Assembly: GCA_023627715.1 (NCBI GenBank)
Contig: JAMAHW010000011.1
Location: 434,001-498,000, forward strand
Length of the DNA: 64,000 nt
DNA from: Periconia sp. R9002
Taxonomy: Eukaryota > Ascomycota > Dothideomycetes > Pleosporales > Periconiaceae
Direction of reading: 5' to 3'
The notes under the pieces: generated by a model
Database searches by the model: none
Told to the model about the DNA's origin: nothing
What the model saw: only the letters and a program-made list of their open reading frames with translations
Position numbers and translations under genes: made by a program
In this document: positions 3,893 to 25,175 of the stretch, piece by piece
Numbering within the stretch: the first letter of the stretch is position 1
How the letters are laid out: every line of letters begins with the position of its first letter

Positions 3893-4099
3893 TACAGCTT
3901 TCTGTACGGTATTTTGAGACTTTTCCAGATTGGGGAGATGGTATGAAACAATATCGAAATGAGTATCTTGTCTTTGTGTGAAATTATGATTATGAGATAA
4001 CGTACAGTTCTGCATAAAAGTCTGCGCTGAGGATCTGAAAATTGAACAAACTCGTATCTGCAGATACATCACATAATATCGTGTATGTAGACTTATCGG

Positions 4100-5023
4100 T
4101 CAGTTTGTGATACCTCCTTCATCACTGTATCGGTGCTTATGTGTCCACTCCTTGAGGGCCTCGAAGTTGCGACATTGATGGGTAGTCCCCCAGCCCTTGA
4201 CGCCACCCACACTATCATCTCTCTCTTCGAGTGTTTGATCTGCAGCGCAAATAAGCGCCTGCCGGATATAGTCAAAGCAATGAAGCATGTGCGCTGACGG
4301 GAGTGCATGGGCCGTTGCAGCAGCGTAGTAACCCCGGCGCAGCATATCCTAAAACGGTCAGCAATGCATAATGATACTGCCGTTGGAACGTCCTCCTCAC
4401 CAGACAATGCAGCTGATGAAATACCGAGACGCAGTATCGTCCTTCTTCACCAGAATCCTCATTTACAATTCGCACAAAGCCCCGGCCAGCTATCAATTTG
4501 TCAGCTTGATCTCGCAACAATATGACTGAATGGGGTATATGCACACTCACGGGGAATCAAGCTTTCCCAGGCAGCATTGGAGTCCTGTGAGGGTGGTGTG
4601 GTGAATGTCTCGTTCGCGACGAAAGTCATTGGTTTCATAGATGAGGCCGGTAAGGCCGATGCGTTCGTCAACCCATTGTGATTGGTAGCTATGACCGCTG
4701 CTGCTTGCATGTTATCCTATCTTGCCACTCCAAAGTAATCTTGAGACAACGCAAAGCATACCATCAGAAATTGCCGTTCCCCAGAAATGAGATCCGAGCA
4801 GGAAGCCAAGGAAGGAGGTGGCCAACGGCAAAAGAAAATTGGAAAGATTTGAGAGGGTGTTTCCTGGCCAGGGAGTATTCTTCGGAGAAATTTGAGACAT
4901 TTTGAAATCTTGTTGTTCAACTGGATGTTCTTCGTTCTGGTTATCGCCCCCGAGAAAGAGCGTTGGAGATGGAATGTAAAAAGTAGGCATATAGCTAAGC
5001 CTAGAGATGGAAAAAGATGTCAA
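4100..5023 (-). CDS. UstYa/DUF3328 family oxidase, membrane-anchored
   Basis: Four exons on the minus strand: 5023-4762, 4703-4551, 4489-4401, 4348-4100 (introns 58, 61 and 52 nt, all in phase), giving 250 aa, the usual length of the family. Order: cytosolic N-terminus; one membrane segment (about residues 57-79, FLLPLATSFLGFLLG); an LIPPGRGFV loop; the paired signature HQLHCL (163-168) and HMLHC (188-192) followed by FDYIRQ; then C-x-x-D-x-T-L-E. UstYa proteins oxidise and cyclise RiPP precursor peptides; the His/Cys motifs are thought to bind a metal. Start chosen at 5023; internal Met codons at 4990 and 4900 are possible. It is divergent from the precursor gene and convergent with the P450, which fits a co-regulated cluster. 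Confidence 0.93.
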
Positions 5024-5665
5024 CGAGGCAACGTAGTGGAGATAAGCTTGTTCACCCGGTTGTTCAACTATCAGTAGTCACACCTTCCACATGAAGATGT
5101 CGCCTCCTCTTCCTCACGTCCGGCAAAGCGAACGAGGCAAAACGAGGTGGGGTTAGAGATGATCTCATGCGCTTATCTGCATATGTAGATAGAGACATAG
5201 GGATTCAAGGCATGTATCCAAGCAACGCAAGACAGTGAATATGGTCTAGGTTGCGGGGTGGCCGAATGATCAACAGCCAAGGCTGTCATATGAGTCCATC
5301 TTCTCACGAAACCGATATCGGTTAAAAAGAAATCAACTACATGATGCGGGGCGGCCAGAAGTCTACCCGGTATTTTCAGGCAGGTGATATTGTAAATGTG
5401 AAGAATCTGTTGTTAATTGGCAGCTTCACGCATGGATCATTGCTGAAAGGTCGATGGCATGCAGTCGATGCATCACAAAGCAACATGAAAGATTGCAGCC
5501 GAGCCCAACAACTCCACTTCTATCCTACTTAACAGCGAGACACTACCGCTTCAAAATTCATTCCGTGCAACTCTGAATCCTTCACAGTGATTCTGCGACA
5601 GCGGCACCACTCGAAAACACATTCTTCCGTTTGCACTGCTGTGCTGTACTTTTTTTTAAACACCA
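5024..5665. promoter_or_regulatory. Shared divergent promoter of UstYa gene and precursor
   Basis: About 640 bp separate the start codons of the UstYa gene and the repeat precursor. No coding potential is visible. The stretch contains a perfect palindrome at 5310-5323 (separate entry). Divergent arrangement suggests joint control, as is common in fungal secondary-metabolite clusters. Confidence 0.6.
5310..5323. promoter_or_regulatory. 14-bp palindrome AACCGATATCGGTT, CCG-N4-CGG type
   Basis: A perfect dyad of 14 bp with inverted CCG...CGG half-sites spaced by four bases. Zn(II)2Cys6 (Gal4-type) fungal regulators bind inverted CGG triplets with family-specific spacing, so this is a candidate operator for a cluster regulator. 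No such regulator gene is visible in the window. The position between the two divergent cluster genes is what gives it weight. Confidence 0.45.
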
Positions 5666-5704: not shown

Positions 5705-7066
5705 ATGCATTCTTTTTCTTTGTTTGCTTTACTTCTGGGGAGATTTGTCAGTGCGGTACCGATCAAAAATACTGGTCAGTACAGATGAAGGAATCTATAT
5801 CTTTCACTGACCTAGCCCAGCCATAAATGATGCAACTAACTGGTACACCGATTCTTCCTCTGGCATGTCCAATGCTATCAATGCTCGCAACCAGGCATCC
5901 AAGGAGAATGCTGGGCTGCTTGCTTCCTTGTCTCCCGAGAAGCGTGACCAGACAAACTGGTACTCCGATTCTGCTGCCGGGATTGCCGAGACCTTGGAAG
6001 AAGAGAAGCGCGATCAATCTTCTAACTGGTACACAGACTCTGCTTCTGGAGTTGCTGGTTCTTTGCAAAATAAGAAACGCGGCACAGACACAGGCGCCAA
6101 CTGGTACGCAGACTCTGCGGCTGGCGTGGCTGAATCTCTGGCAGAAGAAAAACGCGACGAAACTGTCAACTGGTACTCAGACTCAACTGTTGGAATTTCA
6201 AAGAGTTTAGAAGATAAGAAGCGCAATGAAGAGACCAACTGGTATGCGGATTCTGCTGCCGGCATTGTAGAGTCTCTGTCAGACCTTCCCCACGGAGAAA
6301 GGTATGAGCATCTCTCTTCAACTCGTTTAACTGCATAACTTACTTGCAAATCAGGAGGGAAGAGAACGTCGACTGGTACTCAGACAGTGCTTCGCGAGTT
6401 GTCAATTCTCTCGAACGTTCGAAGAGGGCATTAGCCGATGAAAACACAGATTGGTACTCGGATTCATCTTCAGGGGTGGCCAAGTCGCTCGACAAGCGGT
6501 CCTGGACCAACGCCGAGAAAGAAGAGTACGAGAAATCTCTCAGAGAATGGATCTACCAGGATATGCGGCGTCAACCTTTGCGCGAGAGTTCGGAACGAGG
6601 TAAGGCATTTTTCGAGTTTACGCCGAAACCCCGCGACGATGTGGTTGATCGGGACCATGTGCCTGTCGAGCTGCAAGAGCGCTTCAACGCGTCCGAGACA
6701 ACGGATGCTGAACGCGTCAGTATGCTGAACTACTACCTCATGGTGACGGGGCGAGAGCCGAAGCCGGCCAGTGAGCTCGGGTTTCAGCCAACTTCAGACA
6801 AGCCCGGGCTCACAGAAAAGAACGAGGTTGGGTTCGGCTATGCGCTCGCGGGACAGCACCAGACTCATTGCACGGATTTCGTGGCCGATGCTATTGACAT
6901 CGGCAAGGATCACTTGAACGATTTCTTTTTGAGACATGCGATTCATTGTTTGGGTCTTTTGAAATATCTCGCTCCTCAGTTAACGATGAAGCAGCCCACG
7001 AGTTTCTTACTGCCTGAAGCGAACGAGCGGGTGACCAACGACTATCCCCAAACGATACAGGATTAG
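5705..7066 (+). CDS. Kex2-processed RiPP precursor fused to a UstYa-like domain
   Basis: Exons 5705-5774, 5821-6301, 6355-7066 (introns 46 and 53 nt, in phase) give 420 aa; an in-frame ATG at 5666 would add 13 residues. Residues 1-17 form a signal peptide (MHSFSLFALLLGRFVSA). Residues 24-232 hold eight repeats of 22-42 residues, each with a [N/D]WY[S/T/A]DS core and ending in KR or RR, the Kex2 site: units end at 65, 87, 110, 135, 158, 185, 208 and 232. Residues 233-420 form a further domain with HQTHC (352-356) and HAIHC (378-382) followed by LGLLK, matching the paired HxxHC motifs of UstYa proteins; spacing is 26 residues against 25 in the neighbouring UstYa. This domain has no membrane segment. 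Precursors such as UstA carry signal peptide plus repeats only. Inference: substrate and second oxidase in one secreted chain, split by Kex2. A pheromone-type Kex2 precursor is the main alternative for the repeats. Confidence 0.88.
5821..6472 (+). repeat. Eight tandem coding repeats with WYxDS core
   Basis: Coding repeats of the precursor. The cores in order are NWYTDS, NWYSDS, NWYTDS, NWYADS, NWYSDS, NWYADS, DWYSDS and DWYSDS. The spacer following the core (usually [A/S][A/S]G[V/I]xxSL then acidic residues) is also repeated, and each unit ends in a dibasic site. Trp, Tyr, Asp and the second Ser are invariant; the residue after Tyr varies among S, T and A. Codons differ between units, so this is an old, selected array and not a recent expansion. 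Confidence 0.9.
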
Positions 7067-8350
7067 GTGGTAAATTTAAATAGTTTTGACGAAGAGCTGA
7101 TTGTTTTCTCATTCTGACGAATGAAATTCTCTGCTTTGATATGCCACTACTAAGGACGTTATTGTGACCATTTAGTGTGTGGATTCCGCGAGTAATCCAG
7201 TACTTTGCGACGATACATTATGAAAAATTGACAATCCGTTGATAGCACTGTGAGTCTGGAAGCCGGAAGTTTGGTGGTGGGTGGTGCATGGTTCTGTGGA
7301 TATCAATGATGTATCCGATCAGATTTAGGTATTTCATAGTATCGCAGTACTAGGGGCTATCCCTGCCCATTTAATAATCTTAATTATGTAAGGCAATGAT
7401 TTGTTAATGTTACGTTAGCTTCTTATCACGTGCGCAAACAGTTAGTCGATACCCAGGGTTGCCTCGTTAAGCGCTGCGATCGACTGACGTTCTTCCAACC
7501 ACAGGATTGCTTCAAATGCTAATTGAGACAGCTAGAGAACTTATACTGCTAGATCTTAGAAAACTCCAACTTTAATAATTGGAAGACAACAACAGGGCTA
7601 ACTCCTACAAATTGAGGGCATTCCTAAAAAGGGAAAGACTATGCTGCTCTGCGGCATTATTAGCAAGTTAAGCAAGTTAAAGAGTTAAATATACGAGCTG
7701 TCTTACTTTCATTAAGCTACGGACTTATAAAGTAACAACGCTATGGCCGTGCTGCGAGGCCTGCTTACTCGGCACGTTCGTTTCGTCATCAATCAATCTT
7801 TCGAAACTTTTGAACGGCTACAGTCGGTGCACTGAAGCTTTGCAACCCCTTCGTATCCTTTTCAACCATGTGATCGAGCTCTTCCATCGTCGCAACTGTT
7901 TCATATTACACCCGCATCATCTTAAGGTCCACCGACCACGCGCAAACTGGTCTGTCGAAGCTATCAAAAACGTCACAGGCCACTGACTTGGCGAGATCCC
8001 GACTACATATCTTGCTGCCGATACCCTCCTAAACTACCGCCAATACTTAAATATCTCCTGGTCCCAAATAACAGTAGACTTAAGTCCGGCTTAGGAAAAT
8101 AGCATTAATCCCTGATTCATAGGCCTTTTTCCCCACACGGGGCTGAGAACACAATTTTCATTGACCCCACATACCGGGATGCAGCCTTGCACTTGGCCAA
8201 TTTGGTGGGTCTACTAAGTGAATCAATTCTACGTACAGTATTGCCGAACCTCAAAAGTGAGGCACGGGGTACCGAATGGACGTTGGTAAAGACAGGCTGG
8301 TTTGTTCAAATGACCGGAACGAAATAGTCAAGACTTCTCGCGCCAACATT
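7067..8350. other. Gene-free, partly AT-rich stretch
   Basis: No supported gene in about 1.28 kb. It is relatively AT-rich at about 7380-7740 and includes one copy of a dispersed 50-bp repeat at 7321-7370 (separate entry). The 7800-8250 part has the look of decayed sequence, but I could not recognise a transposon protein in it. Confidence 0.5.
7321..7370 (+). repeat. Dispersed 50-bp repeat, copy 1
   Basis: Matches 14460-14509 at 43 of 50 positions without gaps. Shared blocks include ATTTCATAGT and TAGGGGCTA. Five of the seven differences are C/T or A/G transitions. Both copies lie in non-coding DNA; the element is too short to classify. Confidence 0.7.
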
Positions 8351-9082
8351 TCATGCCCACCTACCGCAATGCGTCCTATCAATCATCGCTTGAGGACAAG
8401 ATACCTCATAGAAGTCGACTGAAGGATTATCCGCGTTTTGAAACCAGTCAAACCTCCAGAAACAACCATTGCGAAACATACCAGCAGGCAGCCGATAGCA
8501 GTCATCCCGTTTGGTGAAGCCGCCATACTGGTTCCCAGGATCGACACCGGGAAACTGCTTGTGCCAACCCTCGACAAAAGCACCAACCCCACCACCCGGA
8601 ATGGCGATATCGAAATGGTTGTCGTTGAGGTCCCCACCCGTATTAGTGACTTGAACAATCATCTTCTTGCCGGCAATAGAGGTGGAGGTAAATGTGAGCC
8701 TGTTCAGCACGTCAAGGATGTTCACGCCCGGACGCCATTGCGAATTCTCGACTCACTCGTAGCAAGAACAGCACCAGTCCCGCTCCGTTTTCCCCGGCAG
8801 CTTAGCCGCAGCGAAACCGTAAGCGAGATAATCGTTGACGGCCCACGGTCCGTTGTTGCTACAGGAGTAGGCTTCTCCAGCACCGCAAGCGGACTGCGCG
8901 TTGGGATCAAGAGGGTTGGGCCATAGGTCCTGCCGGTTGCAGGTGCGCACAGGCTCCGAGACCTGTGCTTTGCCGGGCCAGGCACAAGAAGGCTTGCAGC
9001 AGTCCCAGTAGCGGGTTGTTAATCCATGAATGGCTGAAACTGTAGTAACGAGGAAGAAAAGGGCGAAGAATTGGGAGTACAT
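8351..9082 (-). CDS. GH45 endo-1,4-beta-glucanase, catalytic domain only
   Basis: Two exons: 9082-8757 and 8699-8351 (57-nt intron, in phase), 224 aa. The signal peptide MYSQFFALFFLVTTVSA is followed by the GH45 signature TTRYWDCCKPSC with the nucleophile-side Asp, a CCCxCYE-like segment (WCCSCYE at the splice site), then NTGGD and HFDIAIPGGG with the second catalytic Asp, and FWRFDWFQNADNPS near the end. Length equals a bare GH45 catalytic module; there is no linker or cellulose-binding domain. The enzyme should be secreted and cut soluble or amorphous beta-1,4-glucan. An upstream in-frame ATG exists at about 9145, but a TATA box at 9133-9140 falls between it and 9082, favouring the shorter form. 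It is divergent from a related-fold membrane protein gene. Confidence 0.95.
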
Positions 9083-9132
9083 CGTGATGAGCACTTGAGG
9101 AGAGTAAAGCAAAGCGTCTGGGTACTTGTAGG

Positions 9133-9140
9133 TTTTTATA
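9133..9140 (-). promoter_or_regulatory. TATA box of the GH45 gene
   Basis: Reads TATAAAAA on the minus strand, about 50 bp upstream of the chosen start codon at 9082. It supports transcription beginning downstream of the alternative ATG near 9145. Confidence 0.5.
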
Positions 9141-9739
9141 CGCAAAGCAGCGGTGATTGTCGAGCTAAGAGATACTCCGGCCCCCTACCGGGCATGTAAA
9201 TGTCTCCATGGGGCACTATTGTATAGCGGTGTGTGGTCGGGATGTAGACCTGATGTTACGCGGTCCACAGCCACACTCAAGTTAACAGCTGATTTTATCA
9301 GCCGCACGAATGTTGAACCATAAGTCGAATGACAATAAGACTCGCGTAACCGCTAGTCGCATCGAGGCTACACATAAGGAGGCTGGAGCGCGCTGTGTAA
9401 CTTAGCAATCCTTGTATCTAAAGTCTGACAGGCTTTTGCCCTCGCTTCTTAAGAGTAACTAGTTGTAAATACTCTACTACCTAGCTGACCGCAAGGGTTT
9501 CCACGGTTATAACACGATCAACAAACTGCAACGTCGGAAACACCCAGCTTCACGGTAGGTGTGAAGTCCGATACATATCGATGATCCCCTGCATATAAGG
9601 CCCTCGCTAGCTATCCCTTCACAATTAACCCTCAATCTTCACATAAGGGCGTAATTTTGCAGCCTCAAGCATTCTGACTGACACTTTCCCCTCCGTTTCT
9701 CTTTTCTTCAATCGCCTGGAAATATAATTCACCTTATGT

Positions 9740-10847
9740 ATGAACACCGCTAAAATTTCACAGCTACACATGTCTAACGGCATCTCAAGCGAGGGGGAGG
9801 AGTTTGCGGTTTTTCATCATATGGAAAAGACCGACAAAGGCCTCGTCGAAGCTTACGCGGATGAGACGACCCATGGGCAGGCGGACACAGGAAAAGAAGC
9901 GATTTCGCGGGATGAAGGAGGACTTATACCCGTTGAGACGCCTACACAAAGCCCCCTCTACCCATATTCACTAGAGCCCGGATCAGAGTCGATTGGTGGT
10001 GCTTGGATCGGACACCCACAGATGTGGCCATTATCATCCTCATCGAGAGAAAATCATTTGACAGCACACCATCCTCAACCGAAAAAGAGACGCTTTTCGC
10101 AACCCTGGTGGTGGCTATCGTTTATCACGGCGGTACTCGTCATCGGAGGAGTCATAGCAGGTGTAACCGTCGTCGTTTTGCGCAAATCCCCATCAGGAAC
10201 CTCGACTCCGACCCCTAGCGCGACACCCTCAAGTACCCTGATTCCGGTTGCTTCCCCCGATTCCTCGGCCTTTAATGTGGGCACATCATACAAGGCAACC
10301 TTCACCTACTACGGCTCTGGCGATCTTTCTGGATCCCCGAATTGCAATACTGTGGCTACGGCTTGCGGATTTTATAGCAATGTAAGCGCCCTCGCGCAAA
10401 GTTGCTTGAAGGATAGAGACTGATTGCACCCTGAAGTCGGGATTTACAGTTGGTCTCTCGCAAGCACTCTTCGGCGCCGGACCAGGCGAAGGCCAAGGAC
10501 CCGCCTGTGGAACCTGCTGGAAGTTAGAGGTTAAGACAGACAGCTCCGGGAATGGGTTCAGGAACGGCTCGCAGTCGATGGTGGTAATAGCAAACAATCT
10601 TTGCCCAGGTGTGTCTCTTCGAGCCATGAAAAGCAATCGACTAAATCAACGAGTAGCGCTTGGAAATCCACTCTGCGGTCAGCGGAATCTAGGCCTAACA
10701 AATAAATATGGCGCTAATGTTAATATTAATTTGTGCATTGATTCGGGTGCGTCAGATGCCATGTTTGGATCGTCCGGTATTGGACTGGGGGTAGGCACCG
10801 CAACGAGAGTCGATTGCTCTGAATGGAATGGGAAACGGGCGCAATAG
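9740..10847 (+). CDS. Type II membrane protein with GH45-like/expansin-like domain
   Basis: Three exons: 9740-10381, 10437-10608, 10657-10847, giving 334 aa; a start at 9770 (MSNG) is also possible. Residues 1-110 are cytosolic and polar, ending in KKRRF; one membrane helix follows (WWWLSFITAVLVIGGVIAG), then a Ser/Thr/Pro linker and an extracellular domain. The domain resembles GH45 subfamily C and expansin-like double-psi beta-barrels: ATFTYYG, TACGFYS, FGAGPGEGQGPACGTCWKLEV, MVVIANNLCP, NPLCGQ, DCSEWNG. In active subfamily-C enzymes the segment corresponding to NINLCIDSG reads HFDIC, so the catalytic Asp appears replaced by Asn here (comparison from memory). Inference: a wall-loosening or glucan-binding protein held at the cell surface, not a hydrolase. 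TATA-like sequence at 9594-9599. Confidence 0.82.
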
Positions 10848-13564: not shown

Positions 13565-14991
13565 GGTGAATATATATTGGAGAAGCGGCTTATATCTTGG
13601 GGGTATGTCTGTGAATGTAGTGTGAATGGCGTCGTCGTTGTTGCGATGAACAGACACAATGGTGTCGCGCCTCTCAAACCACGGACGATAGTCGACACTT
13701 GCACGACAAAGGACGGGGCAGGCTTGTATGAACGGAAGTAGTAGTAGAAGAAGATCGTCTCCGATGCAACAAAGCTTGGGTTCAATAGAATGAAGCAAAA
13801 AGGTGGGTGGGTGGAGTGCCGGGCAGCGGTGGTTGGGAAGGAGGAGGGAGAGGCAGCGACAGCACCGCTAAATATTGTACGATCGGATTATCTAGCTCGC
13901 CGGTTCCGTGAACAAACGCGTTCCTTGCCCACGATATGACGGAACGGGAAAACGTTGACGCAGATGATTCACTGTAGAGCAAGAGATGACTCAGTGTGTG
14001 ACCTCCGTACGACCAATCACGTGACAGCTATTTACTTATGTGTGACTGGTACGATTCTAGCCAACGCCGTGCGCACGGGAGCTCTGCTATTGATGCTAAT
14101 ATCGCAAGTGGTCCTTTCTTATTCAGGGATTAATCAATAGGAACACTTTATCTATTGAAGGTAGGATTCCTCTACCTCAAGCCGTATACTTATAATCGGC
14201 GATAATATTAGCAGACCCTACTCATATTGTACTCCTTATTCAATAGACCACCTTCTCCACAAAAAGAAGTCAATACCCCTCCATCATGAACGGCCTAAAA
14301 TATACATACTGTGCGCTACTTCTGTATCCCTCTACTATTTATAGTGTTGACACACTACATATCTAAACCCAATCCACCAGTCATCATCATCCCTCATACG
14401 TACCAACCCATACAAAAACCAAATTTTCATTGAGCCATCAGTCGCAAACATTACCTACCAGATTTAAATATTTCATAGTACCGCAGAACTAGGGGCTACC
14501 CTTACCCATACACAAAATAAAATCATATATCAAACACACAAAAAAAACGTTACTTATTACTCTCGATGCATATTCTTCCTATCGCGCTTTTCTTCTTTTG
14601 AATTGGCTTTGTAAGGTTTTAGTGTGAAAACCACTTGCACGGGAACGATGTCTCTGTGGTGTCGAAGTTGAAAGTTATGTAAGTAACCAAGGTTGGATTT
14701 CGTGCGTATTTTAGATAGGTATGTATATGTCTGTCGAACAGCTTGGAATGTTTTAGGCAGATACATGGGTAGGTAGGTATATGTGGTTATGATGGTCGAG
14801 GTTTAGAGTTAGTTTTACAACACCTCTTTCTATATTGAGGTGGTTAGATGCATGTCACGTAATTGGTTTGTTGAAGGAGAGATTTATGGGATTGGAAGTC
14901 ATCAAGTTCGTACATGATTATGTTGAATAGTTTGGTTTAGTATACGAAAAAGCACCATCTGTTTCCCTGTGCATATATCTGCGCGCAGAAA
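13565..14991. other. Gene-free stretch, AT-rich in places
   Basis: About 1.4 kb upstream of the coiled-coil gene and downstream of the ECM4-like gene. Short open frames lack features. It contains the second copy of the dispersed 50-bp repeat at 14460-14509. Confidence 0.5.
14460..14509 (+). repeat. Dispersed 50-bp repeat, copy 2
   Basis: Partner of 7321-7370, same orientation, seven mismatches over 50 bp. It lies in non-coding AT-rich DNA. Confidence 0.7.
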
Positions 14992-16296
14992 CTACTCCTC
15001 TTCCAACGGCCGAATATTCGGCACAGGCCCAGCAGGCACCACCAAATTCTGCGCCCTCGCATATCCGAGTTTGATCTTTTCGCCGCCACAAAATCAGCCC
15101 CTGTACGTACAAGCCGAAACCAAAAAAAAGGGAGTAAGGGGGGTAAAAAAAGTGCAAGGGAAAAAAACATACCGCCTCAAAATCCGTCGTCCTCCCAAAA
15201 GCCCCCCCATTCGTCCTCTCCCCCTTATCCCAATAAACCTCCCTCAACCACCGCTCAACCCTCGGATACCCCCCACCCCTCAACATCCTCAAATTACACC
15301 TAAAAAGCGTAAAATACGCGACATCGAACCTAATCAACGTCGGAAACAACCTCACATCCGCTTCTGTCACATTCTCACCGAATAAGAAGGGTCCTCCGTG
15401 GGGCGCGTCGGCGAGATGTTGCTCGACGCGGTCGAGGGCGTCGAAGAGCGGGTACACGTTGGCGTCGTAGGCGGCCTGCGTGGTCGCGAAGCCGGTTTTG
15501 TAGACGCCGTTGTTGATGAGGGGGTATACCCAGGCGTTCATGGCGTCGATGGCGGTGCGGAGGTGAGGCGGGTAGAGGGGTTTGGTGGATTCGTGGAGGG
15601 AGGGGGGGAGGTAGGCGTCGAAGGCTGTGTAGAGGATGCGGATGATTTCGCTGGATTCGTTGTTTACGATTTTTTCTGTGGGAAGGGGTGGAGGGCGTGT
15701 TAGGATTGATCTTGATATGAGAGCCCGTCGATGGGAAGGGAGCGTACGGGCCCGACCCTCTAAAAAAGCCCAGTGTAGTTGACAAAAAATAGGACATGAT
15801 GAATACATACCACCCTTCCTATCCCACAACATAGGCACCGTAAACCTCCCCTCATACCCGGGTGCCCCCTTCAAATAAACATCCCTCAAATACTTAAACC
15901 CATACAACGGCTCCCTCCCCTCGCCCGCGAAGCACCACAGCACCTTCGAGCCGTCCTTCTCGGAATGGTCAAACGTCACGAGCTGCAGGATGCTGTCGTC
16001 GAGGCCCTTGAGCGAGCGCACAATGTTGGCGCGGTGCGCCCAGGGACAGCCGCGGTGGATGTAGAGCACGTAGCGGCCGGGCTCGGCGGGGAAGGGCGCG
16101 GACGGGTCGTCGGGGGTGATGGTGGAGCGGAAGGACGAGTCGACGCGGCGGAAGTGGCCGTCTTTGTCGGCGAAGTTGGCTGGGGTCTGGGGGGTGGGTT
16201 AGTGAGGGGAGGTTGGTGGGAATATCCCCTGACGAATTGTCTTTTCGATGTGGGTTGTTTTTGTGAAATTGTGTAGCTTACATCTTGCGAGGCCAT
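14992..16296 (-). CDS. ECM4: Glutathionyl-hydroquinone reductase (omega-type GST)
   Basis: Four exons: 16296-16282, 16186-15811, 15675-15173, 15075-14992; all phases agree and give 325 aa. The first exon codes only MASQD. Family features: a thioredoxin-fold N-terminal domain with YIHRGCPWAHR, where the Cys is the catalytic thiol that takes glutathione from glutathionyl-quinones; VPMLWDRKGEKIVNNESSEIIR, the glutathione-binding segment; an all-helical C-terminal domain with ADVRLFPTLIRFD; and a terminal NLVVPAGPVPNIRPLEEE. These cytosolic enzymes reduce S-glutathionyl-hydroquinones. The last acceptor was placed at 15075/15076, because an upstream AG leads into a stop and only this one restores the conserved C-terminus. 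Confidence 0.93.
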
Positions 16297-16792
16297 AGTT
16301 TTCTCTAAATATCCTACCTTTCCAACAAATAAACAGAAAAAAATCGATTAAACACCAAATCTTACAATTCTCTCCGTTCCAAGACGTCTCTAAAATACCT
16401 ACACAAGTAATTACAAACCTTGTTCAACAAAGGTGGGGTAACTCCCTCACAATGAGGTGAGTGGCGCGGGGTTAAGTCAGGAATCCCCAAACCGGCCAAA
16501 GGAGCGAGGAGGTATAGTGTAAGCAAGAAGAAAAGCTCCGAGAGATGATTACTCAACTCGGCGCATCCCTGGAAGATGTGCTCTCGGTAGGGAACATTGG
16601 TACTTTCTTTTTAGCCAATCAATAAAAGGCGCTGGTCGCTGCTTTTTTCTTGGGTGGATTATGTGAAGGGTATATGTGTGCATGTATGTCTGGGTGGGAT
16701 ATACGTACATACATACTCAACATTATACAACAAGTCTAACTATCCATGCATGCATACATGTAACCCGAACAAAAGCTCAACCAACATATAAA
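16297..16792. other. Short gene-free stretch
   Basis: About 500 bp between the ECM4-like start and the 3' end of the Smr gene. There is no gene; it includes short ATGCATACAT-type simple sequence near 16680-16760. Confidence 0.5.
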
Positions 16793-18466
16793 CTACCTCC
16801 TAGCAACCCCCAAAACCCTAACCTCACCACCCGCAACCTCAACCTTCCACCCCTCTTGAATCAACGCCCTACTAACCGCAGGTCCCAACTTCCCTCTCCC
16901 ACCCTCACTATGCCTCCCGACGCCGGTAACAACGCGGTACCCATCCCCAACACCCTCCCTCCCACCACCGGGGATGCGTTTCTCGCCCAGCGCATCCCAC
17001 CATTTGCGCGTCTCGGTGGTAGCGATGCGCACGGCGTCGGCGACGCTCGCGCCGTGGAGGTCGAGGACCGTCGGGGAGGATTGCGAGGCGATGAGGCGGT
17101 CGGTGTCGGCGGCGCGCGAGGCGCGGAGGAGGGCGTTGGCGTCGCGGCCGAGTTGCGAGTAGTACCCTGCGGCTGCGCGCATGAGGGGGTCGGAGCGGCC
17201 TTTGCGGTAGGCGGTTGAGGCGGAGGTGAAGGCTTGGGTGCGGGTCGTGGTTAGGGAGGCGCTGGTGTGGGGGGTTAGGGATGGGGGGAGGGAGGGGAGG
17301 GTGGTGGTGGTGGGTGGTTGGGAGGAGGAGGAGGAGAGGTTGAGGGGGATGTATTGGGGGATTATAGGGGTGGTTGTGGTTATAGGGGAGGTGTTGGGGT
17401 TGACGAGGGCTTTGGCGAGTTGGTGCGCGTTGGCTGTTGAGGGGTCGGTGAGGCGGATGAGGGAGAGGGCGTGTGGGATGGAGAGCGTGGGGAAGTCGGA
17501 GGTTAGGTCTATGGCGGATTGGATGTGGCTGGCGTGTGGTTCTTCATTCTCGTGCGAGGCGGTGTCATTCTGGATGAGGGCCATGATGGTGGGCGCGAGG
17601 GCTGCGCCGTTCTTGTGGTAGAGGGATGTGATGAGTTTGGAGGGGAGGTCGGTTTTGGAGGCGATGAAGTTTATGTCTTGCTCGGCGTTGTTCCACCTGT
17701 TGGTCGGCGGGGGAGAGTAGGTATCGGTTTCTGATGCGGCGTAGCTTGGATTTTGCAAGGCTTTTCTGCCGTTCTTGTTCTTCTTTTTCCCTTTTTTGTT
17801 CCGGTTTGATACGTTGAATTCTTCCGCAAATGCATCTATTCCCCTGGGGGCTGACTCTTCGCCCGGGCTCGACTGGGCATCTTCAAGATACACCCGGTTC
17901 AGCAGCTCATCTGTGGCTCTACTCAGATCGTTGCCGCACTTCTTCAACGTGTACGTCACGAGCTGCAGTCGCAGGCTCGGAAACGTCTCGGCGAGCAGGA
18001 TCTCCTTGGTTGGCGTGTCGAAATGTTCGGTATCTCTGTAATATCCGCCATTCCACGAGTCTTCTGAACCAGAGTTAGTTCGGTGTCCGAGGCCAAGTGA
18101 TCCAAATTCAGCGGAGAGGCCAGTGTCATCCGTCTCGGTCGTTTGCGAGGCCCAAGAGTTGGTGTTGGTATGGGGCTCGTCCACTTCTGCTTGCATAGGG
18201 GCTCCGCTGCTGCCAGATGGGTCGAAATCTGTCAGCTGCTCAGCAGCCGCAGCTTGCTTGAACCCATCCAGTAGAGTCCGGAGGGTTTCGATTCCATCGG
18301 GCTGTTCGTTATAGTCGAAGTAAAGCGCATGCAGAAGCGCGGGGTCCAAGGGAGGACAATATTCCTTCTGCCAGAAAAAATTAGCCTACACTCTACGCAG
18401 GTCGTCTGGCGTCTTCTTTGAACGCTGCCGCATACGTACTTCGAGATCAGACAGGGCGTCAGCCAT
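16793..18466 (-). CDS. CUE-like, DUF1771 and Smr domain protein
   Basis: Two exons: 18466-18440 (MADALSDLE) and 18367-16793, joined by a 72-nt intron with a GTACGT donor; 533 aa. The join yields EKEYCPPLDPALL, which is typical for this fungal family and decides the start. About residues 125-165 form a CUE-like helix bundle (LLAETFPSLRLQLVTYTLKKCG), which usually binds ubiquitin. Further on are a disordered Thr/Ser/Pro region, the DUF1771 segment (YRKGRSDPLMRAAAGYYSQLGRDANALLR type) and the Smr domain opening with LDLHG and containing GVGRHS. Smr domains are nucleic-acid endonuclease folds; eukaryotic CUE-Smr proteins act in mRNA or ribosome quality control. Inference: cytosolic, possibly a Cue2-like no-go-decay nuclease. 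Confidence 0.88.
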
Positions 18467-19420
18467 ATTTTGTATTATGAGATGTGATGGGTCCTGAGTT
18501 ACGTCTATATTGCATAGTCGGAAGTCTATGATATTCAGCCCAGAAAAGAAATAGTATCCAATCCAAAACCCAGTGGTGGAGCGGTCACGGGGTGTTGGCA
18601 AATGTATGAAGGGGCAGGCTCTCAGTTAAGTATCAATGGTTGACGGTGTGGCGGGGCTGTGCCAAGATACGTCTTGGCGCAACAATCAACAACCAAAAAC
18701 CAATATTCACCTACGAAGCGTGTTTTGTGTACCAGCGCAGCGTCACGACATGGTGAATCAACAAAGAGAGGGACTGGTTTTTCTCCCACAAAATCAAAGA
18801 CGTCACGGCCTGACTGCGTCGCTAATTATTGACGCTAAACAGGGACCATCCGACTTGATCTTTAGTAAGCGGAGCTACAAGATAGATCGAATTCTACAAC
18901 GTCAGGACCTTCACGCATAGGAAGCAAACAAGTTTGTTAATCACGATTTGAATTCTTGATCATGCTACCACATACCATGGGTTGAAAAAAACAGCCGGCA
19001 CTTTGGCAAACTAGCTTTCCTACAGAGAGAAGAAAGAAAAAAAGTGTAAAAAACGGGCCATTCAATCCACAGTAAGTATACGCCCATAAAATGTACATAC
19101 AAAAAAAGAAGACTGCTCGTGGAACGCCATAGGACGAGCTTTGCGTCCAAATGCAAACCGCCCCTTGTATGAAATGACTTGCTTGACTGCGTAAAGTGAG
19201 GGGACAAAGAAGAGAGCCATGCCAAGAAATCATCCGTCCATTCGTCCCTCGTCTATCTTCGTGACTTGCAAGTAGGAAAACGAGAGGAATGAAAAAAAGA
19301 CGTGCCTGTACATGCTCCTGATCGCAAAACCCATTTCATTTCATTTCAATCCGCCACGAAAAAAAGTTCCCTGAGCGCCATTCGCCCAACACTGATGATT
19401 TGTACCTCATAATGCAGCAT
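18467..19420. other. Gene-free stretch
   Basis: About 950 bp holding the promoter of the Smr gene and the 3' untranslated region of the HECT ligase gene. No coding support for the short open frames here. Confidence 0.5.
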
Positions 19421-22400
19421 TTATGAAAGATGGAAGGCACCCTGGCCTTCTCGAATTGCAACACTCAATCTCTCCTTGAGGACCTCTATGTTGCTGTAGT
19501 CTGGCATCTTGAGATAGTTGACGCACGTCATAACGCTGGGGAGATAGTCGTCCGACGTGTAGGGCGGTTCGCTTGGCTTGCAGACAACGGTGAACATTGG
19601 AGTAAGATTCTTGAAACCTAAGATAGAGTTAGTGGTGCGAAGATCTTCAAGGAAACGTCGCATGAACTGACCTCCAATGGGTAGCTTGGGACTGCCCGTG
19701 ATGAACTGCAAAAAGTCTCGACGCTGTGTGACTGTAAATTCGCTCATGACCTGCAGCAGGTTTCGAACACTCTTGCTGTCAAGGTTGAAGCCATGATCGG
19801 CTTTTATGGAATCCATCAAGGCTAGGTTGGGGTTAGCAACTATTATGCATAGTGTAAGGGCTGTAGAACTTACTTTCGAGCGACCAGTCTTCATCCACAC
19901 GACCAAACAACATGACCAGCTCGGCAGGGGTGAATGCCTTCAGTGCAGAATACGGGAAGACCTCCGAAAATCCAGCGCGGAAAGCGTCTACCTGACGCTG
20001 GACTCCTGAGCCGAGGGTAAAATCAAGTACGGCGTCCACATATTGGTCCACGTTTTCAATCGTTACGGACTGCTCACTTCCTCCTTCGATCAAATCAATG
20101 GGATAACCAGGGAGTGTGAAATCTAGACCCAGGTCCTCAACGTGACAGTCTTGGATGACAATTCCATCGTAAGCTTGTTTTTTCTGCCTCAAGTCCAAGT
20201 TGGGGTCCTCATCGACGCGCTTCTTTGCATCCGCAAACTGTTTCAGCAGCTTGAGAGACTTGGCGAGATCGTGATCCACAGACTGAACAGCTCCGAGAGA
20301 TGGAGCGACAGTGGCACTTCCATCTCCGACGCGGAAGAAGGTGGGGTTGAATGACACATCAATGATTCGAGAGTCCAGCATCGAACGAGCAGCGAATTTT
20401 CCTAGTACCCTGAACAGTTCGAGTACCTTCTTGCCATTCTCATTCTCGGCTTGTTGGGCGCTCATAGGAGCTGGGAATAACCCGCGCTTGCCAAAGGCAT
20501 ACTCGTCTCCTGGGTTGGATTCATTCTCACGCCACAACTTAAGCTTCTTTTTCGAGAACTCTTTGGAAACAGTGGCGTAGAATTCGAGCGTCGGGCCGAG
20601 GCCGGTGCCAACTTCGTCGAAATATTCCACCTCGAGAATGCTTGGAGAATGCCCATACAAATGCATCACCTTCATAGCCGACTCTAGGATCCGTGTACGT
20701 GAAATGCGCACTTTTTGTCGCTGAAGACGGCCGAGGAATGGGCGTTCGTCGCGATGGCGGTCATTTCGAGAATCGCTCGTCGTTTGCGAGTTCTGCCATC
20801 TAGTCATGGATCGCGAATAGCCAAACGAAGTAGACTGCAAGAAAAGGTGGCGCGTTTCAAAGGGAAACAAGAAAGGATACAGACGAGCCAAGTCTTCGCT
20901 CCAGCTGGGAAGGCAGTTGCTGGCAACGATGAGTGGCTCCTCCAATTGACGGTTCAGCTTGGCAGTCAACTTGGTGTTGACAAACTGCGAAGCAGGCTCC
21001 ATGTTGATTTTGAGTTGTTCACGGTGATCGGAAATGAGATCATCCAAGTTAGCGTTGAGATTATGCAATATGCTCAACAAACGCAGGATACCCGAAGTCA
21101 CTGGATATTTGTCGAGGGAGCCGGGCATGCCTGACACTCCCGCCTTCGACTCTGGAGGTGGAGACCAGGCCTTTGTCTCCGTTGGAGGAGGGCCGGGCAC
21201 GCGCTTGAACTTGATGGTGTGAATAGCGTTCCAGACAGTACGGTGCGGAGAATCATTGGCTTGGCTAAAATGCACAGCACGGTATATAGTAGTGTCATTT
21301 GAAATAGGCTCATCATCAACACTGAATTCGATATGCCAATCCTGTGGGATAGCTTGCACAGCAGCTGCGTAGGAAAGAGCACCGGCAACCCCACTCAAGT
21401 CTCGGAGACTGGAAGACTGGCCCAAGATTGAGGATAGACGAGAGGGTGTTCGCTCTTGAGAGGCAGGCGTCTTGCTCGCAGACTGGGTCTGGACCGGTGT
21501 GGCCACCCTGGTTCCATCCTCTTTGTGGGCGGTCACTTTGCCGGTCGGCGCCACTTCCACACTCACAGCCGAAGGATCAGCCTCGCTTTCCTCCATTTCA
21601 TCCTCCAGGTCACCAACAATGGTGTTCAGAGCGCTGCTCTCGTCCAGAGAATCCCCGTCTGAAAGTCGTTCCTCGTCAGCACATTCTACGGGCTCCTGGT
21701 TGCTAGTCGTACGTGGCATAGTGGGAGGTGGAGGGGGCGGCGGAGGAGCTTGGGTTTGCTGACGACGGCTCGAGCGGCGTGGCTTTTCTTGAGGGGTGGA
21801 ACTGGGACCTGCGTGGGGTGGTGGTGGTGTTGAAGAGCTGGACGGTTTCGATTTTGACGATTTCCTCAGAGAAGAGGACCGATTAGTGGCCTCAGACGGA
21901 GTGTGCGGAGGCGGAAAGGTAGGCGCACGTCCTTCTGCAAGTGCCTGAGCATATGCAGCGACATGATCGCGACTCCTAGACGCGCGAGGTCGCTCAGCAA
22001 TGCTGATCCGAGGGCGTAGATAATCATCCAAAGCCTTAAAGGTGGCTATAGCATGGATAGAGACCATAATGTTCCGATAGGTTTTGGGAATTCCGGAATC
22101 GTCATCGGCAACAAGCTTCAGCCGCAGCTGCTTGGCCAACATGGAGGTTGCACTGCCACGGCTATCATAGGAGTGTTGATGCACAGTTACCACCTCGAAG
22201 TGTTCTGATCGGCTGAGTAGATCTTGAAGCTTGCTAACCAGGACGCTGAAGGGGGTAGCAGGCGAAGCGCTGTTAACGGCATTGACCTTGCTTTGTTGAC
22301 TGGCCCCCATGAAAGCCTCCAAGAATAACGGACGAGGATCAATCTCATGTGGGGCGATAGGCTTGGAGAAAACTTCGAGCAACGCATCGACAACATTCGT

Positions 22401-25175
22401 TGTCATCAGCTCGTAACTAGTGATGCTTTCAAGTGCGTCGCCGACAAAGTAGGCAGCCAAGCGAGTGAACAGATGCCCACAGTCTTTGGACCCTTCTTCC
22501 AACACGCTCTTCTTAATCTGCGTAGCAAGCGACTTGATATCGTCTAGAATCTGGGCCGACTTATCACGGACCGACTTGCAGTTCTCTTGCTCGTGGACTT
22601 CGATGAATTTTCTCGCTCGAAGAGTGATTGTATCTTCGGTGTTCATAGATGGAGGTGCAACGTAGCGATCGGAGGACGAAGAAGAATCGGAATCGTCGTC
22701 ATCGTCATCGTCATCATGATCTTCGTCATGCTCGATTTGTACATTCTCCAAATCGTGATCATCCTCCTCCCCAGAATTCATATCAGCATCCATTTCATCC
22801 GCCTGGTCTTGATCGCCATCAGCTTCTCCAGCAGCGTTGGTGCTCGTCTCTGAATCAGCGGCTGGCTCAACCTCGATTGTGGTTTTGGAATCTTTTGCTC
22901 CAGGCTCCGGCACTTTGAGGGGTCTGTTTGCGAGATGGGAAATTTCCGAAATGACACCCTCTCTATAGAATTGATACCGATAGACTGGTTCCAAGCGCTT
23001 CAGCAGAATCTCGGCCGCCTGCAGTGCATAGGTCACCAACATGGGATGATCCTGCTGCGAGAAGATGGATGCCAGGTGCGAAGCATAAGGGACATATCGA
23101 AGGGCTTCTTCCAATATTTCCGTATCGAGATTCGAGAGCATTTTGAGATGTGCCGTCAGTACCTTTTCCCGAACGCTCAGATTCACAGTGCTAGAGTAGA
23201 CGTCGGTCAGAGTGGGCAGCAGCACAACTGCGAAGTGCTTAACTTCCTGTTTGCAATCGTTCAAAAGCTTGATGCGGGTTTCATTGGTCGATTGATTGGT
23301 ATCAGAGAGCGGCGGTAATTTCTCCCCCGGATAGCCAGCATCCACGAGATCTTCCACATACGTTAAGCCTTCCTTGGGTAGATCCGGGAGCAGCTCGCAG
23401 ATGACATTAAGTGTTTCGAATACCTGGTCTTTGGGCCGATGGATAAGAGCTTGCATAATCACAACACTGTCGATGCGTGTAGCGACATTGTCAGTGCCGG
23501 ACGGTGGTGAGACGCCGGTGAGGATCTGGAACAGAGTGTCTACAACGTTCATTTTGAACAGTTCAGCGGACAGTCGCGGGCTTGCCTTGGCCGTATAGGC
23601 TAGGACTTGGAGAAATTGAGTGTGAATGTTGGGGCCGATCATGTTGGTGGTACCAGGAAGAAGCAGTCTCAGGATAGCCCGGAGGAGCTCAGGGCTCACA
23701 AGCTCTTCCAGTTTGTCCTCGTAGTGTTTGAAGCTCTGAACGATCCTCGACACGCACATGCAACCTTGCTCTACAACCTTTTGGTCATTGTTGTTCAGAA
23801 TATCCTTGAGGATGGGCATAACATCGCGCACGGTGGAGAAGGAGTCGGATGGGATATTGCGACAGCAGTTGGCAGCCGTAGTAACCGCCGTTCGCTGGGT
23901 GCTGGTTGCGAAGAAATCGAGATAGGTCAAGCACGCAGTCAGACCCCCTTCCCGCACAATCGAGGAGGGGAAATCGATCGAGATTTTTTCAAGTGTGCTG
24001 AGGCACTGCTCGGCGAGGTCAATGAAATTTATTTCAAGCAGCTTGGAGCACAGCACAGGCACTGCGCCTCCGTATACGACATTGGCTGTAGAAGCAGGAA
24101 GAGCTTCCATCATATTGGCCAGAGAGCGACACGCGAGGAGCATAACCTCGGGATTCTCCTCTCCGTACTCGTTTGGTTGCATGAGATTAACAAGCTCTTT
24201 TACGTAGGCATCAGGGGAGAAGTGACCCGCCAGCGAATCTTCATTCGACAGGAGCAATGCCTCTGAAAGCGAAGTGAGAGCTACAAGTTGGTCCGACACA
24301 TCGGGCGACCGTAACCCCTCCAAAACGCCGCGAAGCTTCTGAGCAGTGCCGTTCAAGTAACCGGCCATGCCCGTGAGCTGGCGAAGGGCACTGAGGGAAG
24401 AAAAGCCCCGGCCACCGAGGAAACCTGGACTGAAGCCATCGTCCTCGTCGTCCTCTTCGTCCTCATCTTCGTCTTCTTCTTGATCATCATCGTCGTCGTA
24501 GACAGCGCGGAGTGCTTCGCCGATGATTTCAGCGGCCCTATCCGGTCGACCTGGCCCCGAGCCAGAGGGGCGTGTGTCTTCCTCCGCTTGTGTCTCCGAT
24601 GCGTCCGCCATTGTTACATCATCGTCCCCCTTGGGTGCTGATTTGCGAGTCTTCCGTGATGCCGAAGGCGATCCGTCTGCACTAACGTCCGTGTTGGATG
24701 GTTTGGAGGATTTGCGAGAGCTGCTATTGTCAGTGCTCCCCGATTTGCGGCTGCCCTTGGCACGCTTTGATGAGGATGATGAACGCCCCGACGGGCCAGC
24801 TTTTGCCTCATCTCCATCTGTTGATCGCCTACTTGGCATCAGCAACTCCATTTCAGCATCAGAAGGATCTTTGTCATCATACCCAGGCGCCGACATTGTA
24901 GACTTTCCTTTCCCCTTCTTGGAAGAACCTGGTGTAGCGGCAGGGGGATCTTGCAGGTCGGTCTTTGTGCGCTTAACACGTCCGGTGCGGACAGGTAGCG
25001 ACTGTCCCTGCGCGGGAACTGGGTCGTCGGGGGTGGGCTCGCGTGCGGGAGCTTTGCGTTTTCTAGACGATGCAGTAGACGGAGGGGCGGATGGCGGAGC
25101 GGGTGGGTTGTTGGGCGGAGAGGTGGTGGAACCTGCTGAAAGCCTCGCAGAAGAGCGAGTCACTCTGGACGACAT
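19421..25175 (-). CDS. UFD4: HECT-type E3 ubiquitin ligase, Ufd4/TRIP12 family
   Basis: Four exons: 25175-19874, 19821-19672, 19617-19421 (introns 52 and 54 nt; the 54-nt intron keeps frame and has no stop), so three junction-confirmed exons, 1882 aa. Order: a disordered Ser/Lys-rich N-terminus, acidic tract DDDDDQEEDEDEDEEDDEDDG split over a short stretch, armadillo-like repeats (about 250-720), a second acidic tract, Pro-rich linker and a C-terminal HECT domain. HECT landmarks are EVEYFDEVGTGLGPTLEFY, ADHGFN, LPIGGFKNLTPMF and the catalytic Cys in PSVMTCVNYLKMPDYS. Ufd4 attaches ubiquitin to ubiquitin-fusion and N-degron substrates in the cytosol and nucleus. The second intron is called because its removal restores LPIGGFK. 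The gene is by far the largest in the window and looks intact. Confidence 0.95.

Follow-up and report, generated by a model that had tools for sequence, protein, structure and literature searches.

CctR, a DUF3328 protein, carries a paired HxxHC motif that binds 2 coppers and is described in words as lying on 2 helices, and mutants of its His and Cys residues lose all activity; it is a membrane-anchored separate protein with C-terminal cysteines that works as a disulfide-linked dimer, dimerization is needed by CctR, ApnU, and AprY, and purified DUF3328 members needed detergent or refolding (PMC12435403). In the accessible text of a paper on Kex2-processed repeat protein (KEP) precursors, DUF3328 proteins are encoded by separate genes lying on average 3.09 genes from the precursor (PMC7329392), and the portions available of 3 further studies likewise assign precursor and DUF3328 protein to different genes (PMC12048977, PMC9233826, PMC9632046). 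Searches for fungal RiPPs commonly look for a repeat precursor that has a separate DUF3328 gene in its vicinity, as given in excerpts of 2 of these papers (PMC7329392, PMC9632046). The excerpted 2025 lichen survey also found clusters without any repeated precursor (PMC12048977).

Fused enzyme-precursor RiPPs are already known from plant burpitides and from borosins. According to the accessible parts of 2 papers, the plant burpitide cyclases AhyBURP and SkrBURP hold the core(s) and a copper cyclase in 1 polypeptide, and split versions occur too (PMC12186524, PMC11253845). The fungal gene described below resembles the fused burpitide cyclases in placing precursor cores and an enzyme-type domain in 1 chain, but plants use the BURP domain for this, whereas the fungal fusion has HxxHC twice and comes with a separate UstYa as well. 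Borosins (OphMA type), reportedly described in 2017 by Ramm and by van der Velden, are fungal RiPP precursors fused to their own modifying enzyme, and our gene is like them in joining a fungal RiPP precursor to a modifying-type domain; the borosin enzyme, however, is a methyltransferase and not an oxidase, and the borosin precursor is not of the secreted Kex2 multicore type. What appears to be new here is the fusion of a DUF3328-type domain to the precursor. The preliminary description knew of no such case, and our literature search of titles, abstracts, and passages, with most subscription journals outside its reach, agreed in finding no paper on a fused DUF3328 precursor. Search rules that expect a repeat precursor and a separate DUF3328 gene could overlook precursors with a built-in domain, or split them wrongly.

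We analyzed a window of 64,000 nucleotides from the genome of Periconia sp. R9002 (the whole stretch of DNA under study) and identified on its forward strand, at 5705-7066, a gene whose spliced product of 420 residues comprises a hydrophobic start, 8 WYxDS cores, and a 188-residue C-terminal domain (Table 1). Our reading, held at a probability of about 0.57, is that it encodes a multicore RiPP precursor carrying its own oxidase-like domain, which would work, alone or with the separate UstYa, on the attached cores. The layout first reported for this gene, with a signal peptide (by eye), 8 WYxDS repeats, Kex2 sites, and a domain of 188 residues that bears HQTHC and HAIHC, was recovered with the same coordinates, frame, and motifs. 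The cores start at residues 31, 70, 93, 118, 141, 164, 191, and 217 (the last ending at 221), a dibasic pair is present in all 7 internal linkers, and the last KR occupies residues 231-232. Shuffling of residues 1-232 gave at most 1 WYxDS per shuffle in 20,000 shuffles, compared with the 8 observed. Across the 8 cores, Y and D are each encoded by 2 different codons and S by 3, while the residues stay fixed, and the core is therefore under protein-level selection. As in the dikaritin/KEP precursors (ustiloxin, phomopsin, asperipin, and epichloecyclin), we found a signal sequence (by inspection), repeated Tyr-bearing cores, dibasic Kex2 sites, and a DUF3328 gene nearby; unlike in those precursors, the domain is fused, and the accessible text of PMC7329392 contains no fused domain. 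Cores and a modifying-type domain thus lie in 1 chain, the layout of a fused RiPP cyclase as far as it can be read from genes.

The preferred gene model was chosen from 12 combinations of splice sites that kept the frame open in the ranges examined. Intron 1 was chosen because the resulting N-terminus resembles those of relatives, and the signal sequence was assigned by eye from the sequence and these relatives; a second fused copy in the same genome, on contig C136, has a 47-nt candidate intron directly after its signal sequence, close in length to the 46 nt of intron 1. Cores 7 and 8 share the frame of exon 3 with the domain, and the fusion is therefore independent of any intron call. A gene-prediction artifact, in which 2 adjacent genes were wrongly joined, is extremely improbable and already contradicted: this frame is free of stops, the C136 copy has 5 cores and the domain in 1 frame, and all 24 relatives found in our first search are fused, as expected for the single gene originally proposed. 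As a separate observation, Pfam DUF6348 matches the repeats of the fusion at residues 42-119, above the cut-off in the whole protein, and 11 of the 25 members of the first set (the window protein and these 24 relatives) at E <=10; this match looks like a repeat artifact and may mislead annotation.

Table 1. Positions of genes and features at the fusion locus, in its upstream flank, and on contig C136 (window coordinates unless stated)
Feature	Position	Strand	Description
Exon 1 of fused gene	5705-5774	+	Start codon and hydrophobic, probable signal sequence; similar in relatives with intact N-termini
Intron 1	5775-5820	+	46 nt, GTCAGT..CCCAG
Exon 2	5821-6301	+	Cores 1-6 (WYxDS) with dibasic linkers
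Intron 2	6302-6354	+	53 nt, GTATGA..ATCAG; use of an alternative acceptor 3 nt downstream also keeps the frame open
Exon 3	6355-7066	+	Cores 7-8, last KR, whole C-terminal domain, and stop in a single open frame
C-terminal domain	6500-7063	+	Residues 233-420; UstYa-like by motif
HQTHC motif	6857-6871	+	Residues 352-356
HAIHC motif	6935-6949	+	Residues 378-382
Separate UstYa gene (PF11807)	4100-4900	-	Divergent from the fused gene; hydrophobic N-terminal stretch; 3 introns in model
Cytochrome P450 gene	2037-3892	+	PF00067, 202.1 bits on 3' open frame; introns in 5' half; start read from frames
Rhodopsin-domain membrane protein gene	455-1048, continuing past the window edge (9468-9899 of upstream segment)	-	28.3 bits in one part
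O-methyltransferase gene	Just upstream of the window (7636-9018 of upstream segment)	-	PF00891, 77.3 bits in the larger open frame
Glycosyl hydrolase family 45 (GH45) gene	8753-9184	-	Downstream of the fused gene
Second fused gene	Contig C136, segment 14001-24000, 3946-5033 within segment	-	331-residue open frame

The same fusion was then found in other ascomycetes, where the preliminary description had proposed to look for it. A search directed at the domain (the scored region) and limited to proteins of 231-735 residues, a length window that favors fusions, returned 24 proteins, all at E <=4.1e-47, and each of the 24 combined 1-10 WYxDS-type cores with HQxHC-26-HxIHC in 1 chain. Of these, 13 are named NCBI records, belonging to Periconia, Zopfia, Paraconiothyrium, Trypethelium, Cladosporium, Nemania, Biscogniauxia, Xylaria, and Xylariomycetidae (lineages were looked up for 4 of these organisms). 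The second search, made with an alignment of 12 domains, returned 32 proteins of 99-348 residues, 18 of which were new, with a core in 5 and no core in 13; several of the 18 start just upstream of the domain or within it, as last-exon pieces would, and may be such pieces. Taking the window protein and the 42 relatives together, a core was present in 30 of 43 proteins and both HxxHC motifs were whole in 41, the remaining 2 being truncated, and the H, H, and C of either motif were kept in at least 90% of the 43 aligned sequences. The domain (68%-85%) was better conserved than the repeats (51%-61%) in a comparison with 8 relatives.

Among the internal linkers of the family, 88 of 127 contain a dibasic pair and 126 some basic residue, and a dibasic pair separates the last core from the domain in 28 of 43 proteins, including 24 of the 25 in the first set. 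Judged from these sites, Kex2-type processing would fit the 5705-7066 protein well, and the dibasic site is missing from some relatives, notably in Xylaria. The domain could be freed at the site after the last core, and together with its strong conservation this is consistent with a separate secreted protein, either enzyme or effector, that uses the precursor's transcript and signal sequence, is cut off by Kex2, and takes no part in modifying the peptides. We consider this quite improbable, since none of the 42 relatives has the domain directly behind a signal sequence (by eye, with protein P0037 unclear), paired HxxHC motifs are known from peptide-modifying enzymes, and a UstYa gene accompanies the fusion.

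The preliminary description took the C-terminal domain for a second UstYa. The part that stood is the HxxHC(x)nHxxHC signature of UstYa/DUF3328, present as HQTHC and HAIHC and placed on 2 predicted helices; the part that did not is recognition by the family profile, since the 188-residue domain (residues 233-420) reached 11.8 bits against PF11807 (E 0.22), under the cut-off of 25. The whole 5705-7066 protein and the exon 3 protein gave no PF11807 row, and the C136 copy gave no match at E <=1; in the family, 15 of 25 members match PF11807 at E <=10 (best 1.6e-4), the exon 3 protein of 5705-7066 not being among them. Further, 2 UstYa features are absent from the fused domain. One is the N-terminal transmembrane anchor: on inspection, the domain comes right after the cores, and no long hydrophobic stretch other than the signal sequence is present. 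The other is the set of C-terminal cysteines that link monomers by disulfides in CctR: the 2 motif cysteines are the only ones in the 5705-7066 protein. The domain is like CctR, AprY, ApnU, and UstYa/UstYb in having 2 nearby HxxHC motifs, each on a helix (predicted here), a probable secretory location, and the company of Kex2-type repeat precursors, and unlike CctR in being joined to a precursor, without anchor or extra cysteines and below the Pfam cut-off.

A profile-profile comparison with 6 UstYas of the same genome gave a probability of 93.6 (E 2e-7, 63 columns) in an alignment that also covers sequence upstream of the first motif, and other UstYa sets gave probabilities of 70.2 and 85.5 and scores of 36.6 and 39.0. 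When all columns were permuted, the best scores were 21.9 (200 trials) and 21.6 (120 trials), against the observed 36.6 and 39.0; when both motifs were kept in place, the observed score was reached in 24 of 120 permutations, and the similarity therefore rests on the paired HxxHC motif. With the motifs masked, the match fell to 13.1, which is noise next to the 19.8 of the best of 200 masked permutations. The AlphaFold2 model of the domain (pLDDT 87.1, pTM 0.76) places 1 motif on each of the consecutive helices 118-139 and 142-161; a straight antiparallel hairpin drawn from these helix limits, by arithmetic without coordinates, would leave the motifs about 10 residues out of register. A fold search of the PDB with the domain returned no clear match, a result that alone rules nothing out. 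By motif and predicted helices, the domain appears to resemble the DUF3328 copper site, and it likely descends from UstYa. That the paired HxxHC arose independently, in an unrelated helical metal-binding domain with a different reaction, is improbable: the motif-preserving permutations and the fold search agree with such an origin, and against it stand the profile probability of 93.6, with its alignment reaching upstream of the first motif, and the setting in a fungal secretory precursor with an adjoining UstYa gene.

That adjoining gene, previously called a true UstYa, is one: PF11807 matches at 62.1 bits on 1 exon, over the cut-off. Its HQLHC and HMLHC lie 25 apart in the spliced model (1 of 4 tied for best), and HQTHC and HAIHC of the fusion lie 26 apart. 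Both numbers behind the earlier comparison of spacings are right, but they are weak evidence of kinship, as the HxxHC spacing ranges over 24-44 in 9 UstYa pieces of the same genome (some of which may hold unspliced introns) and over 26-57 in 22 relatives of the neighboring UstYa. We identified 25 relatives of this UstYa at E <=1e-10, and in 8 of the 13 named fusion records such a relative occurs in the same organism on a contig of identical length, which we took to stand for a shared contig (lengths in parentheses): Periconia macrospinosa (102464), Xylariomycetidae FL0641 (122404), Xylariaceae FL1272 (623431), Xylaria FL1777 (482508), Zopfia (2039832), Biscogniauxia (483547), Xylaria bambusicola F5B22 (912948), and Xylaria scruposa (628634). 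In 3 pairs the protein numbers are 1 or 2 apart (514058/514060, 742307/742309, and 466416/466417). No matching UstYa relative at E <=1e-10 was found for the other 5 of the 13 (Xylaria bambusicola RRF57, Paraconiothyrium, Nemania bipapillata, Trypethelium, and Cladosporium), and for 17 of the 25 UstYa relatives no fusion from the corresponding record was among the matches.

In both gene trees, built from the 8 pairs and the window, the window, Periconia, FL0641, and FL1272 split from the rest (supports 0.994 and 0.863); the fusion and UstYa trees differ inside that split and in the weakly supported remainder. Periconia is a Dothideomycete, FL0641 and FL1272 are Xylariomycetidae by name, and in both trees the window and Periconia group with these 2 Xylariomycetidae and not with Zopfia. 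This shared split, mixing a Dothideomycete with Xylariomycetidae, suggests that fusion and UstYa were inherited jointly, perhaps with transfer of the pair between fungal classes.

The canonical UstYa alongside, with its same-organism, equal-sized-contig relative in 8 of 13 named records, also fits the main rival to our reading, which keeps the idea of a precursor-borne UstYa-like domain and makes that domain a non-catalytic follower, derived from the UstYa fold or mimicking it, that binds the active neighboring UstYa and presents the cores to it (as recognition element, chaperone, or inactive dimer partner). The need of CctR, ApnU, and AprY to dimerize (PMC12435403) and the distance of the domain from the UstYa model of Pfam speak for such a follower, but mere binding is harder to square with both HxxHC motifs being whole in every protein of the family except the 2 truncated ones, and we regard it as unlikely, though less so than the other alternatives. 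The rival explanations overlap, the independent-origin one with each of the others, so that the weights given to them need not sum to one.

The preferred reading remains a precursor with an oxidase-like domain of its own, and on the sequence evidence the domain would most likely act on its attached cores as an oxidase-like partner together with the separate UstYa. The signal sequence would take the chain into the secretory pathway, where the C-terminal domain would fold and, judging from its 2 HxxHC motifs, bind copper. Alone or paired with the membrane-anchored UstYa, the domain would then oxidize the WYxDS cores attached to it in their Trp/Tyr region, and Kex2-type cleavage at dibasic or basic sites would separate the peptides, mostly of 20-25 residues, both from one another and from the domain. 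A mixed pair of domain and UstYa is attractive because characterized DUF3328 enzymes need to dimerize (PMC12435403). The fusion would keep enzyme and substrate together in 1 compartment, as happens in the fungal borosins and the fused burpitide cyclases of plants, and the earlier proposals of a fixed enzyme:substrate ratio and of release by Kex2 as a soluble lumenal enzyme are reasonable. If the domain does act on its own cores, it would be an anchor-free, substrate-linked DUF3328-type enzyme, which could ease study of the family, and a fungal parallel to the fused cyclases of plant burpitides that uses another domain. A larger claim, to which we give slightly less than even odds, is that these proteins form a new fungal RiPP class of self-modifying precursors, in which a dicopper UstYa-type oxidase is fused to its own WYxDS cores and works in an obligate mixed pair with a membrane UstYa, the class extending across Dothideomycetes and Xylariales and being inherited as a 2-gene unit.

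Several other genes surround the pair. The P450 gene is a possible cluster member, the O-methyltransferase gene just before the window may be part of the cluster, and the rhodopsin-domain gene at the window edge, which we take to be Pth11-like, could belong to it as well. The GH45 gene may mark the other side of the cluster.

A search of the whole genome (42.9 Mb, 267 contigs) with the domain at E <=10 gave 2 matches, both fused, namely 5705-7066 and the C136 copy. The 5 cores of the latter are all WYRDS, and its domain is 58% identical to that of 5705-7066. A UstYa exon (64.2 bits), with the first motif readable as HQLHC, lies about 1.1 kb upstream of the start of the C136 fused gene, and sulfotransferase and pyridine-nucleotide oxidoreductase genes are found near it. 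The same C136 segment (14001-24000) holds at 7346-8311 on the forward strand a frame with a hydrophobic stretch and the motifs HVKHC and HIVHC that has no PF11807 match at E <=1 and is perhaps, by these features, another DUF3328-like protein missed by Pfam. On contig C60, at about 46.1-46.3 kb on the reverse strand, a repeat protein with WYDITYIDK cores lies between 2 UstYa matches; no UstYa-like domain is visible in its 120-residue frame, and this is apparently a conventional split precursor/UstYa case in the same organism. The genome is rich in UstYa genes, with 61 exon matches to PF11807 at E <=1e-3.
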